Source: Candidatus Aerophobota bacterium (GTDB lineage Bacteria > Aerophobota > Aerophobia > Aerophobales > B3-G15). From it: 7,085 nucleotides of DNA. A program made the position numbers and the translations under genes. Positions within the stretch are counted from its first letter, which is position 1. Every line of letters starts with the position of its first letter. The stretch is taken from the NCBI GenBank assembly GCA_014859225.1, contig JACUUP010000077.1:1-7085 (forward strand), given 5' to 3'. This document shows positions 3,333 through 7,085 of the stretch, piece by piece. Under the pieces are notes generated by a model. The model was given only the letters and a program-made list of their open reading frames with translations, searched no databases and was not told where the DNA came from.

Positions 3333-3563
3333 TTATTTTCCCTGAGTGCTTTTAAAATCGGCAAACAAAATAACAGCAAATGAAACTGCACCGCCAAAAA
3401 GGGCCCCAATAAATGGAGAGTAGGTCATCAAAGGAACAGATTTAGCATCAGTTATAAATCCAGCAATAATGGTAAAAGCTATGGCTCCTACAACTGCACC
3501 ACAGCCTACCATTTCTAAGGCTCTTGCGGCGCAAGCTAAGGTTAAAGATTTTTCTTTTCTCAT
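3333..3563 (-). CDS. Small two-helix membrane protein of unknown function
   Basis: I do not recognise this 76-residue protein. It has a basic N-terminus (MRKEK), a hydrophobic helix at about 17-37, a short polar loop (TDAKSVPLMT), a second helix at about 48-69 and a polar tail (KSTQGK). Each helix carries a GxxxG pattern (22-26 and 53-57), often seen where helices pack tightly. The ATG at 3563 lies five bases after the antiporter stop codon and has no clear Shine-Dalgarno of its own, so translation is probably coupled. An in-frame TTG at 3578 would add five residues and overlap the antiporter, but has no better ribosome site. The position suggests an accessory subunit of the antiporter-like protein (inference). 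Two small helices vaguely recall AtpI/AtpZ-type proteins, but no motif supports that. Confidence 0.7.
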   Translation of the reverse strand: MRKEKSLTLACAARALEMVGCGAVVGAIAFTIIAGFITDAKSVPLMTYSPFIGALFGGAVSFAVILFADFKSTQGK

Positions 3564-3568
3564 TTTAT

Positions 3569-5548
3569 TTACAGACAAAAGACTAATATTAAAATTACCA
3601 GACCTAACAAAAACCAGGCAAGATAATTATGTAAAATTCCGTTATGGGCAAGGCTGGCAGCTTTTCCGCAGAAAAGAACAACATAGGCAAGCCCTCTCCA
3701 CAGATAATCGGCAAGCCTATCCAGTGCAAAAAGAAAATACCCTACCGCTCTGGAGAACGCCAGCATTCCCTGGTAAATGTCAATAAGACCTTTTTGTCCT
3801 GCAGCGTATATTCTGCGAATACCAACAAAATTTGCCACGGTGTCAGAAAAACCTATCCCGCCCAAAATCATATCTCCCCGCGGCTCTTCTCCCCCAATGT
3901 AGGTAATATCTTCTCTTCCAAGTTTCACCTTGCTGAAAAGATAAATTAATATCCCCACAACAAGTCCAACAATCATCAGGATGGTGGCAAGTTCTGGCTC
4001 CCACCATCCAACCCAGCTTGCAACCGGGGGCATTTCGGCAACAAAAGGAAGCACAAAAAATTTAAGTGGCAGCTCATAAGCAAAGATACCAAAAATAGCA
4101 CACAGACAAGCTAAAAAAAGCACAGGAAAATTCATGGTCATACCTACTTCCTCCACTTTTTTTTCTGGAGCAAGGCCTGGATTAGAAAAAGTGTGCACCA
4201 GGGAAAGCTCCTCAGCTCTTCTTTTCTCAGTAAGGCCCACTTCACCCAGAAAAACAGAGTAAAACATCCTTATGAAACTTGCCAGAGTAACTACACTTCC
4301 AAACATAGCAGCCACAAGCCATACTATCCATAATCTTCCCACCCCTCCTAAAGTTGTAAGCTGGATAATTCCCTGATAAATCATCCATTTGGAGAAAAAT
4401 CCGTTAAAAGGAGGCACACCTGAGATAGCAAGTCCTCCCACTAAGGTTCCCGCGAAAGTTAAAGGCATCCACCTTGCAACTTTTCCCAGTGAGGAAAAAT
4501 CAGAGGTTCCTGTTTGATTTTCTACCGAGCCTGCGGCAAAGAAAAGAAGGGATGTCCATACAGTTGTGCTTAAAAGATAAAAAAGTCCTCCTGCAATCCC
4601 CACCGGATTAGCCGTGCCTATTCCCATCATCATATATCCAGCAGCAGAGATATTAAGATAGGCAATAACTTTTTTCATATCAGCGCTAACAAGAGCCATC
4701 ATCACCGCTACCACAATGGTGAATGCTCCTATTAACATAAGATAAAAAGAGGCAAGGGAGGTTGCGCTCAAATTGAAAAAATCAGATGAGATGCGAAACA
4801 AAAGGTAAACCCCTAACAGTTTATCCAGGGAGGCAGGTAAATACGCCATTACCGGAAGTGGAGCTTCCCTGGAGGCATCGGGTATCCAGGTATGAAAAGG
4901 AATGCTTCCCATTTTAGCTATAGCCCCGGTGGCAAGAAGAATAAATGCACTAAGAGGCAAAGCTCCTGTAAGCTCAATTTTGAGCGGAGTATCCATATTT
5001 AAGCTTCCGGACAATTTAAATAAAAAAAGCGCTCCTAATATGAGGGCAAAATCAGCAACCCCCATAGTAAAGATACCTTTAGTGGCGAGTTTGAGGGAGC
5101 CCAAGGAAAGAAAAGCATAAAGGAGCAGAGCCAGTATTCCCCAGAAAAGAAGAAAGACCACAAGATTATTGGCTAAAATAACGCCCCAGGAGATACCAAG
5201 AGTTAAGAGAAGGTATGTGTAATATTCTCCCGCTCTTTTCTTATTTTTCATAAAGTTTGCAGAGTATAAACAGGTAAGTAGTGCAAAAAAAGAGATAAAA
5301 AGCAGGATTATGGAAGAAAAACCGTAGCATCTTAAAGAAAAATCTATATTCATCTGAGGCAACCAGGCATAGCTCCAGTATAAAGGCACATCTCTAACTG
5401 CGACAAAAAGAAAAATACTTAAAGCGAAAAGGATGACGCTAATGGCTATAGCTATTGCTTCTTTTACCCATTTTAATTTGATAAAAAAACAAATACCTCC
5501 TGCTACTACGGGAAATAAGATGGAAAAAAGTAAAATATTTGCATTCAT
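3569..5548 (-). CDS. NuoL/ND5/MrpA-type proton-conducting membrane subunit, orphan
   Basis: A 659-residue integral membrane protein of the antiporter-like subunit family shared by complex I, Mrp antiporters and membrane hydrogenases. Hydrophobic helices fill about 1-540. The core (about 125-430) has KMGSIPFHTWIPDA (212-225), APLPVMAYLPASLDKLLGVYLL (229-250), KKVIAYLNISAAGYMMMGIG (292-311) and GVPPFNGFFSKW (377-388). Family-type lysines are present at 212, 243 and 387. The TM5 glutamate that normally follows Trp is absent: the sequence reads FWGILALLLY, with Gly137. After about 566 comes a long amphipathic stretch and then a final helix (642-658), resembling the lateral helix and anchor of NuoL. 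The start overlaps the receiver stop (ATGA), and GAGGTG lies five bases upstream. No partner subunit genes are in view, so whether it moves H+ or Na+ is unknown. Confidence 0.9.
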   Translation of the reverse strand: MNANILLFSILFPVVAGGICFFIKLKWVKEAIAIAISVILFALSIFLFVAVRDVPLYWSYAWLPQMNIDFSLRCYGFSSIILLFISFFALLTCLYSANFMKNKKRAGEYYTYLLLTLGISWGVILANNLVVFLLFWGILALLLYAFLSLGSLKLATKGIFTMGVADFALILGALFLFKLSGSLNMDTPLKIELTGALPLSAFILLATGAIAKMGSIPFHTWIPDASREAPLPVMAYLPASLDKLLGVYLLFRISSDFFNLSATSLASFYLMLIGAFTIVVAVMMALVSADMKKVIAYLNISAAGYMMMGIGTANPVGIAGGLFYLLSTTVWTSLLFFAAGSVENQTGTSDFSSLGKVARWMPLTFAGTLVGGLAISGVPPFNGFFSKWMIYQGIIQLTTLGGVGRLWIVWLVAAMFGSVVTLASFIRMFYSVFLGEVGLTEKRRAEELSLVHTFSNPGLAPEKKVEEVGMTMNFPVLFLACLCAIFGIFAYELPLKFFVLPFVAEMPPVASWVGWWEPELATILMIVGLVVGILIYLFSKVKLGREDITYIGGEEPRGDMILGGIGFSDTVANFVGIRRIYAAGQKGLIDIYQGMLAFSRAVGYFLFALDRLADYLWRGLAYVVLFCGKAASLAHNGILHNYLAWFLLGLVILILVFCL

Positions 5549-5943
5549 TTTTTCACCTCATTTTTTTGCTTTTTTAAAGCATCATTAACCGCAAGTTCTA
5601 TCTCCTCCATATCCAGTGGTTTTAAAGCATAAAAGAAAACACCTTCTGCCCTGACTCTGCGGGCAACCTCTAAGGAACTATTGCCGGAGGTCACTATAAT
5701 GGGTAGTGTGGGGTCTATTTTTTTGAGAATGGGGATTATCTCGTATCCCTTGATTCCTCCAAGCTCTAAATCCATAATTAACACCTTTACCTGTGTGTTT
5801 TGAACTTTCTGAATTACCTCACTCCCGGTAGAAGCAGTCTCAATGGTGAGATTTTTACGAGATAAAAATTTAGCAAGATGACTGCGCGTCTTTTTATCAG
5901 CATCGGCAACAAGCACCAGCCCAGAAGATCTTATATAATTCAT
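5545..5943 (-). CDS. Single-domain response regulator (CheY-like receiver)
   Basis: A 132-residue protein made only of a phospho-acceptor receiver domain. The acidic pocket is D14 and D16 (LVADAD), the phosphorylation site is D58 (LIMDLELGG), the switch Thr is T85 (IIVTSG), an aromatic sits at 104-105 and the conserved lysine is K108 (ALKPLD). All catalytic positions are present, so it is probably phosphorylatable. There is no output domain: only a lysine-rich tail (KKQKNEVKK) follows the last helix, so it must act through a protein partner or a phosphorelay. It is the first gene behind the sigma-54 promoter and overlaps the antiporter start by four bases, which suggests coupled expression and perhaps direct control of the antiporter (inference). 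The ATG start has a modest AGGGA eight bases upstream. No histidine kinase is in view. Confidence 0.93.
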   Translation of the reverse strand: MNYIRSSGLVLVADADKKTRSHLAKFLSRKNLTIETASTGSEVIQKVQNTQVKVLIMDLELGGIKGYEIIPILKKIDPTLPIIVTSGNSSLEVARRVRAEGVFFYALKPLDMEEIELAVNDALKKQKNEVKK

Positions 5944-6080: not shown

Positions 6081-6096
6081 ATACGCTTGAATAATT

Positions 6097-6113
6097 TATG
6101 CATGCACTGCATA
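6097..6113. repeat. Palindromic dyad, candidate enhancer site for the sigma-54 activator
   Basis: TATGCA and TGCATA flank a 5-base centre in perfect dyad symmetry. The centre is about 142 bases upstream of the predicted start at 5963, a usual distance for enhancers bound by NtrC-type proteins, and five bases past the activator stop codon. It is too A/T-rich and too small to be a good terminator. Confidence 0.4.
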
Positions 6114-6118
6114 TATTT

Positions 6119-7085
6119 TCACTGGTCTTGGGTGGGGAGGGATATATTATATTTTCGCATCAAAGCCTGGAAATTTTGCCTTTGCATTCCTACATCTTTT
6201 GCTGATTTTGTAACATTAAACTGGTTTCGTTTTAGTGTTTCAAGAATAAATTTTTTCTCTACTCTAACAAGTATTTTTCTTTTCAACTCTTTTTTTATTT
6301 TTTTTATTTCTTCCCAATTCCTGGGAATCTGCACATCTAAAATCTGCTCCTCTCCTCTGATGCTTAAAGGTAGATGTTCAGATTTTATGGTATCTTCTTC
6401 GCTCATCACAACTAACCTCTCAATTAAATTCTCCAGCTCACGCACATTACCTGGCCAGGAATAATTGATGAGAAGTTGCATTGCGGAAGAAGAGATACCT
6501 TTTATGCTTCGGTTACGCTCCTTATTGTGCTTCTCAAGAAAATGAGAGGCAAGAAAAGGAATATCCTCTCTTCGTTCGCTCAAAGGGGGAAGATATATGG
6601 GAACGATATTTAATCGGTAAAAAAGGTCATCGCGAAATTTACCTTCTTTTATTAGTTTTTTAAGGTCTTTGTTGGTGGCAGCTACTATTCTAATGTCCAC
6701 TTTTTCCCACTTGGTTCCTCCTACCGGTTTAAACTCTCGCTCCTGCAAAACTCTCAAAAGTTTTGCCTGAGTGGATAAAGTTATGTTGCTTACCTCATCC
6801 AGGAAAAATGTTCCTCCATTAGCTATCTCAAAAAGTCCAGGTTTTGTAACTATGGCATCGGTGAAAGAGCCCTTGATGTGACCAAAAAGCTCACTCTCCA
6901 GCAAAGTCTCCGAGAGTGCTCCGCAATCAAGGGACATAAATGGTTTATCCTTTCGAGGTGAGCTATAGTGGATTGCCCTGGCTACCAGCTCTTTCCCTGT
7001 TCCACTTTCACCCTGAATAAGCACGGTAGAGTCGGTAGGAGCCACCTTTTCCATAACCTGATAAATCTCCTGCATCTTTTTGCTC
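6119..7085 (-). CDS. Sigma-54-dependent transcriptional activator (NtrC family), 5' end cut by window edge
   Basis: Only the C-terminal part is visible (about 321 codons, entering from the right edge as SKKMQEIY). Positions below count from that Met, which is internal and not a start. The AAA+ domain carries Walker A GESGTGKE (22-29), the sigma-54-contacting loop GSFTDA (69-74; canonical GAFTGA), Walker B TFFLDE (89-94), FRDDLFYRLN with the arginine finger region (147-156) and the sensor II stretch WPGNVRELENLI (207-218). A charged helical linker (about 254-275) leads to a Fis-type helix-turn-helix (about 276-311). Hexamers of such proteins use ATP to open promoters held by sigma-54 polymerase. 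The missing N-terminus probably holds a receiver or other sensory domain that would name the signal. The sigma-54 promoter 130 bases downstream is the likely target. Confidence 0.96.
   Translation of the reverse strand, partial: SKKMQEIYQVMEKVAPTDSTVLIQGESGTGKELVARAIHYSSPRKDKPFMSLDCGALSETLLESELFGHIKGSFTDAIVTKPGLFEIANGGTFFLDEVSNITLSTQAKLLRVLQEREFKPVGGTKWEKVDIRIVAATNKDLKKLIKEGKFRDDLFYRLNIVPIYLPPLSERREDIPFLASHFLEKHNKERNRSIKGISSSAMQLLINYSWPGNVRELENLIERLVVMSEEDTIKSEHLPLSIRGEEQILDVQIPRNWEEIKKIKKELKRKILVRVEKKFILETLKRNQFNVTKSAKDVGMQRQNFQALMRKYNISLPTQDQ

Follow-up and report, generated by a model that had tools for sequence, protein, structure and literature searches.

The window analysed here is an entire contig (C192, 7085 bases) of the Candidatus Aerophobota genome G000, and our subject is the operon of three genes on its minus strand: a stand-alone receiver, a NuoL/MrpA-type antiporter-like protein of 659 residues and a small two-helix membrane protein. 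G000 encodes an Mrp-Mbh-type group 4 [NiFe] hydrogenase, and the 659-residue protein is paralogous to one of its subunits. The balance tips slightly toward the operon being the output of an H2-sensing two-component system and its product being an alternative antiporter-like subunit for that hydrogenase. G000, whose nearest named relatives belong to Candidatus Aerophobetes, is a metagenome-assembled genome that spans 1.8 Mb over 273 contigs at 91% completeness; the analysis rests on this one assembly.

The 659-residue protein and its parent complex

Searching G000 for PF00361 gave three more genes on contig C16, another on C235 and a partial one on C260. On C16, genes of the acetyl-CoA pathway are accompanied by AsrA/AsrB-like and CooF-like genes for electron transfer and by NuoH-, B-, C- and D-like genes; then come a 472-residue NuoM-like gene, a 644-residue subunit (L007:11582-13516) and MbhD/E-, MrpB-, MrpC- and MrpD-like genes. 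The 644-residue subunit is 54% identical to the window protein, which we call the spare copy. C260 appears to extend the same operon with MrpE, F and G, a ferredoxin-like protein and HypF, and C235 holds a second Mrp-like operon. The sequence of the NuoD-like catalytic subunit retains both [NiFe] hydrogenase CxxC motifs (CGIC...DPCxxC). The Mrp-Mbh type of group 4 [NiFe] hydrogenase has been described as enigmatic in Saganbacteria and Omnitrophica (PMC6349859). A second [NiFe] hydrogenase is encoded on C131 (L248:6030-10058), with small and large subunits and no apparent signal sequence, followed by MetV-like and MetF-like genes; this arrangement suggests a hydrogenase coupled to methylenetetrahydrofolate reductase.

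The first-pass annotation, made from the window alone, had described a lone antiporter subunit that matched no nameable system and had no complex I, Mrp, hydrogenase or DabA partner in view. The absence of partners is true within the window, where it is an artefact of a contig of only 7 kb. At the level of the genome it had to be rejected, with the group 4 hydrogenase/Mrp operon on C16 and C260, the Mrp-like operon on C235 and the sensory-type hydrogenase upstream, and the paralogy supplies the system that could not be named. Relatives were found in 80 loci of other genomes, covering Ignavibacteriota and candidate phyla such as Omnitrophota, Cloacimonadota, WOR-3 and Elusimicrobia, and in closely matching related genomes. 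In these the gene lies within a hydrogenase/Mrp operon (seen in part on short contigs), and the receiver and small gene are not conserved beside it, which is largely the outcome that the annotation had named as one that would refute its proposal. The spare copy itself stands alone on C192 while its paralogue is in the operon, and its neighbours are the receiver, the 76-residue protein and comF, with no DabA gene alongside as there would be in a DabAB pair.

In a tree, the spare copy falls among the operon subunits, in an Aerophobota clade with 100/99 support. The full alignment groups it with the subunit type of genome G012; once the altered stretch described below is omitted, its clade instead holds the operon subunit of G000 and that of G004 (92/72). 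An origin from a G012-type subunit is thus seen only in the full alignment, and grouping with G012 could not be rejected (p 0.34).

The protein has the PF00361 domain (Table 1), and its AlphaFold model has a confident NuoL-like broken-helix fold (predicted local distance difference test, pLDDT, 87.5; predicted template-modelling score, pTM, 0.85), with the C-terminal part less certain (45-70 in places). It matches 8e9g_L, a NuoL fold, with Z 46.1 over 574 residues and a root-mean-square deviation of 3.7. The model places a 44-residue C-terminal lateral helix between the last two transmembrane helices. This helix is stated to be longer or shorter depending on how many antiporter-like subunits it crosses (PMC9474812). 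In our loci, the corresponding stretch is long (47-48 residues) in 16/16 cases where a NuoM-like gene precedes and short (22-23, with one truncated sequence) in 62/62 where NuoD precedes. The spare copy has the long form. The correlation is suggestive, and the simplest reading is that the spare copy would still fit beside the NuoM-like subunit of the C16 complex. Statistical proof of the link between helix length and a NuoM-like neighbour was sought and given up, as there are two independent pairs and the result is not significant once kinship is corrected.

The departures of the spare copy from its family are concentrated in the central axis. Invariant columns were taken as those at least 93% conserved among 86 relatives, giving 109. 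The spare copy retains 91 of these, including 15 of the 16 in the C-terminal part, and 13 of the 18 changed columns fall within residues 284-360, which contain 27 such columns (hypergeometric p 3.5e-6). Here L298, N299, A302, A303, Y324, T328, W331 and T332 replace H, A, Q, V, H, N/H, Y and K. Judging from alignments and the conserved FHxxxHAxxK motif, Y324 (from H), T328 (from N/H) and T332 (from K) stand where NuoL has the central-axis His/Lys cluster H334, H338 and K342. Proton release on the P side has been proposed for the lysine K342, and ND5 without it is reported to lose ~90% of activity (PMC13358369). The equivalents of LysTM7, the TM8 Asp-Lys pair and LysTM12 (TM, transmembrane helix) are retained as K212, D242, K243 and K387.

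The identical eight-position rewrite occurs in operon subunits of other organisms: G012/L011 in Aerophobota (L011:1345-3258), and L014:5025-7010 and L015:7929-9773 in Elusimicrobia. Across the carriers the pattern is H/A/Q/V/H/N-H/Y/K to L-M/N/A-G/A/Y/T/W/T. With the stretch 284-360 omitted, a single clade of all carriers is rejected (approximately unbiased test, p-AU 2e-78), so the rewrite has two or more origins, unless recombination of 284-360 carried it between lineages. It is apparently convergent between Aerophobota and Elusimicrobia, and the comparison suggests that the altered motif is a recurring state rather than simple decay. In another Aerophobota lineage (L012:7995-9926 and L093), the NuoL K342 equivalent is glutamate, and the remaining motif is unaltered.

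The promoter and the upstream regulatory genes

The operon begins with a sigma-54 promoter, TTGGCATAAAAATTGCT, ~30 bases ahead of the receiver ATG. The chance expectation in the window is 0.88 matches at up to one mismatch, so a single match is weak evidence by itself. Across G000, the pattern TGGCAYN5TTGC occurs 11 times versus once for the reversed control pattern, and rpoN is present (contig C195). A similar site lies between the activator and receiver genes in four other Aerophobota genomes (G001, G003, G004 and G007); in G007, TGGTATAAAAATTGC is in the position equivalent to TTGGCATAAAAATTGCT. About 100 bases upstream of the promoter is an inverted repeat, AATATATGCA-N5-TGCATAAATT, which from its form is a candidate upstream activator site; this repeat was not found in G007. 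The possibility that the group 4 operon is under the same promoter type was set aside, there being no sigma-54 site in the C16 stretch examined (L007).

The activator gene is truncated at the end of the window, and its N-terminal receiver half is on C132 (L173:3768-4223), a contig that terminates within the receiver-plus-linker stub of an NtrC protein. Its final base apart, C132 ends with 12 bases, GAGCAAAAAGAT, that also open the window's minus strand; the reading frame is kept, and the 12-mer is found nowhere else in G000. Only two full sigma-54 AAA+ activators exist in G000. Because the in-frame 12-mer is unique and the other activator is already complete, we take the window activator as the partner of the stub, which would make C132 and C192 adjoining and give one putative joined gene. 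The joined activator is 53% identical to that of G007 over 459 residues and 34% identical to HoxA. The sigma-54 contact loop reads GSFTDA in the window activator (7084-6119) and its G007 counterpart (L148:7504-6080), and GAFTGA or GAFTDA in most Aerophobota activators.

Upstream of the stub, C132 encodes a hydrogenase small subunit (48% identical to HoxB), a large subunit (37% to HoxC) and a soluble, cytosolic histidine kinase (33% to HoxJ). G007 carries the small subunit, large subunit, kinase, activator and a double receiver on one contig, in an order matching G000. After its activator gene come an inverted repeat and a T run, then TGGTATAAAAATTGC, then the double receiver. The target unit there consists of the two receivers, a receiver-kinase and a group 3-type hydrogenase, and the group 4 operon of G007 begins ~500 bases beyond the other side of the small-subunit gene. 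In G014, the small subunit, large subunit and kinase are found at a contig end. The order on pHG1, for comparison, is HoxA-HoxB-HoxC-HoxJ. In C. necator without H2, HoxJ phosphorylates and inactivates HoxA, which drives sigma-54 hydrogenase promoters (PMC10073562).

The sensor thus has the HoxBCJA-type arrangement of a cytosolic group 2 hydrogenase beside a soluble kinase and an NtrC activator, contiguous in G007. Two features of HoxC fail, namely the Gln of the L1 motif (SHS in the G000 large subunit for SQS in HoxC) and the end at DPCxxCxxH, the cleavage site, where the G000 protein has an 8-residue tail after the His. We therefore file the system, by its sequence features, as HoxBCJA-like only. 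Control of the operon by the sensor system is well supported. That sensor and activator respond to H2 we infer from their kinship to the Hox family.

The receiver has an intact phospho-acceptor site, read off the sequence as D14/D16, D58, T85 and K108. Homologues of 34-40% identity lie directly downstream of the sigma-54 activator in G001-G004 and G007. Those of G001-G004 are 38-40% identical to the window receiver, a promoter match lies between activator and receiver in three of the four, and the genes that follow encode a TPR protein and then flagellar proteins, with no antiporter. Flagellar rod genes were not found in G000. Because the downstream genes differ between genomes, gene order indicates that the receiver's bond is with the activator, not the antiporter; it is a movable companion that heads sigma-54 units with different genes. 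A tentative, if probable, role for it is phosphate sink or feedback partner of the same kinase.

Two other receiver-containing arrangements were seen. The Aerophobota loci L147, L149, L150 and L153 have a sigma-54 activator, a stand-alone receiver, mostly with a sigma-54 site between them, a TPR protein and then flagellar genes. With a small CSCG-motif protein also present in three genomes, this looks like an undescribed flagellar control module. Contig C215 of G000 (L172:1590-4428, 4509-5283) has a full set of kinase, sigma-54 activator and stand-alone receiver, followed by a nucleotidyltransferase/HEPN-like pair resembling an MNT/HEPN toxin-antitoxin.

Two segments of the small protein, at about 15-41 and 48-70, are hydrophobic, and AlphaFold models it as two helices with modest confidence (pLDDT 68). 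There is no significant Pfam or NCBIfam match, and assignment to a known family was dropped since only matches below cut-off remained (ThiW, 17.5 bits). No credible homologue appears among 16 other Aerophobota genomes. It is probably, though we say so tentatively, an accessory or assembly subunit.

These results divide the earlier proposal that the three genes form one candidate system. Their tight coupling was exactly reproduced: the antiporter ATG overlaps the receiver TGA as ATGA (5548-5545), and a 5-base gap (3568-3564) separates the antiporter gene from the ATG of the small gene. A single sigma-54 transcription unit under the upstream activator is likewise borne out by a promoter with zero mismatches, by rpoN and by the like sites in relatives. 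A conserved three-gene system is rejected; the trio is found at no other locus, the receiver goes with the NtrC-type activator and varying downstream genes, and the small gene was found in none of the 16 other Aerophobota genomes.

Proposed mechanism and alternatives

In the mechanism we propose, the HoxBC-like cytosolic [NiFe] hydrogenase, the HoxJ-like kinase and the HoxA-like NtrC activator would control the sigma-54 promoter before the receiver gene. The 659-residue protein would probably then take the place of the 644-residue subunit beside the NuoM-like and Mrp subunits. Since the equivalents of NuoL H334, H338 and K342 are missing, such a complex would be expected to move fewer ions, or other ions, for each electron pair, and the hydrogenase could keep running, or run backwards, at abundant H2. 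Incorporation into the hydrogenase, exchange with the 644-residue subunit and a changed ion stoichiometry are steps that we infer. In its full form, the scheme is an H2-controlled gear shift, in which the sensor triggers a swap to a subunit without the proton-release route, the ion-to-electron ratio changes and the enzyme works at high H2 or in reverse. We consider this stronger version possible but doubtful. It would make the altered subunit a recurrent functional class, because the substitutions arose at least twice, in Aerophobota and in Elusimicrobia.

Several points weigh against the proposal of a sensor-controlled alternative subunit. A free-standing copy was found in no other genome searched; that of the window is the sole one. 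The G012 operon subunit has the altered motif and no spare copy was found in G012, so carrying the motif does not by itself indicate a swap. What the changes do to function is uncertain because in HycC the H328A and K336A substitutions, equivalent by spacing to H334 and K342, gave no significant drop in H2 production (PMC9474812). The correlation of helix length rests on only 2-3 independent tree changes. The join of C132 to C192 is putative, since the overlap is 12 bases long and the last base of C132 does not match. Finally, with His at the HoxC Gln site and a short C-terminal tail, the large subunit may be catalytic rather than sensory.

Among the alternatives, the one that survives best is that the 659-residue and small proteins form a free-standing, two-gene ion transporter, like the lone subunits of MrpA- or DabB-type, induced by the sensor to adjust the Na+/H+ balance. 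The separate operon, the private membrane protein encoded directly downstream and the retention of K212, D242, K243 and K387 would all suit this. We nevertheless hold it to be improbable: the relatives are complex subunits, the operon has no DabA-like gene, and a 44-residue lateral helix, of a length seen only with a NuoM-like neighbour, has no obvious use in a monomer. Less probable still is an added regulatory or blocking subunit that binds the membrane arm of the hydrogenase and gates it via the phosphorylated receiver without replacing the 644-residue subunit. The similar receivers heading antiporter-free units in G001-G004 and G007 imply that the receiver is not tied to the transporter, even though the ATGA translational coupling of the two genes, the rewritten channel residues and the intact phosphorylation site are what such a gate would call for. 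Equally improbable is a hitchhiking duplicate that sits behind the promoter by chance with no retained function, for while it is found in one genome only, has the longest end branch among the Aerophobota sequences (0.66) and shows the lowest invariant-residue retention in the family (83%), its 659-residue frame is intact despite only ~54% identity to the paralogue, and its changes are clustered in one functional stretch and recur in operon copies.

The features of the locus are collected in Table 1. The minus-strand gene order is the 3' two thirds of the NtrC-type activator, the receiver, the 659-residue PF00361 protein, the 76-residue protein, comF, a cold-shock gene, hpf, a ptsN-like EIIA gene and metK. 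At 1095-2101, hpf adjoins the ptsN-like EIIA gene as in the rpoN loci of Proteobacteria; rpoN is elsewhere, on C195.

Table 1. Coordinates of the operon and associated features in the 7085-base window.
Feature	Positions	Strand	Evidence
NtrC-type sigma-54 activator (HoxA-like), C-terminal AAA+ and Fis-type helix-turn-helix (HTH) part	6119-7084	minus	PF00158 232 bits, HTH_8
Imperfect inverted repeat AATATATGCA-N5-TGCATAAATT, candidate upstream activator site	6093-6117	none	9/10 arm bases paired
Sigma-54 (-24/-12) promoter TTGGCATAAAAATTGCT	5990-5974	minus	0 mismatches to YTGGCAN6TTGCW
Stand-alone receiver (CheY-like), 132 residues	5943-5545	minus	PF00072 72.6 bits
NuoL/MrpA-type antiporter-like subunit, 659 residues	5548-3569	minus	PF00361 142 bits; 54% to C16 paralogue
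Rewritten central-axis region, residues 298-332	4553-4657	minus	changes at family-invariant columns
Predicted long C-terminal lateral helix ('strap'), residues 591-634	3647-3778	minus	AlphaFold model
Small two-helix membrane protein, 76 residues, GxxxG-rich	3563-3333	minus	no family assigned (Pfam, NCBIfam)

Relation to known systems

It is an open question in bioenergetics whether the exchange of an antiporter-like subunit lets relatives of complex I alter their pumping stoichiometry, and the best-known inducible subunit set is that of cyanobacterial NDH-1MS. If our proposal is true, a spare subunit of a group 4 hydrogenase driven by an H2 sensor would be a second, independent case, and, in what are probably H2-dependent acetogens, it would link the efficiency of energy coupling directly to H2 partial pressure. 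The recurrent set of substitutions is a directly testable mutant design for complex I or Mrp. Searches of the open-licence literature found no description of an antiporter-like subunit under the control of a sensory hydrogenase.

The regulatory part resembles HoxBC-HoxJ-HoxA and HupUV-HupT-HupR in having a cytosolic group 2-like hydrogenase, a soluble kinase and an NtrC-type sigma-54 activator encoded by adjacent genes. It differs in its order, B-C-J-A and then the target operon, in the His for HoxC Gln and the short tail of the large subunit, and in its target, which is an antiporter paralogue and not a hydrogenase operon. The 659-residue protein is paralogous to the NuoL-like subunit of the Mrp-Mbh-type group 4 [NiFe] hydrogenase with CooF/AsrA/AsrB-like genes, as in Saganbacteria and Omnitrophica, but the window copy is outside the operon, is sigma-54 controlled and has an altered central axis. 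HycC of the E. coli formate hydrogenlyase is also an antiporter-like subunit with a lateral helix, and its proton path has departed from the canonical one (PMC9474812). It is the sole such subunit there, however, and its gene lies in the main operon. The nearest working precedent is NDH-1MS (NdhD3/NdhF3/CupA), with NdhF3 comparable to the 659-residue protein. Condition-induced antiporter-like paralogues are common to NDH-1MS and the system proposed here, and in NdhF3 the charged residues of the lateral proton channel are replaced (PMC6981117). The cyanobacterial system belongs to an NDH-1 complex, is induced by low CO2 and includes CupA, whereas here the complex would be a hydrogenase, a single subunit is involved, there is no CupA, and the exchange is proposed by analogy only.

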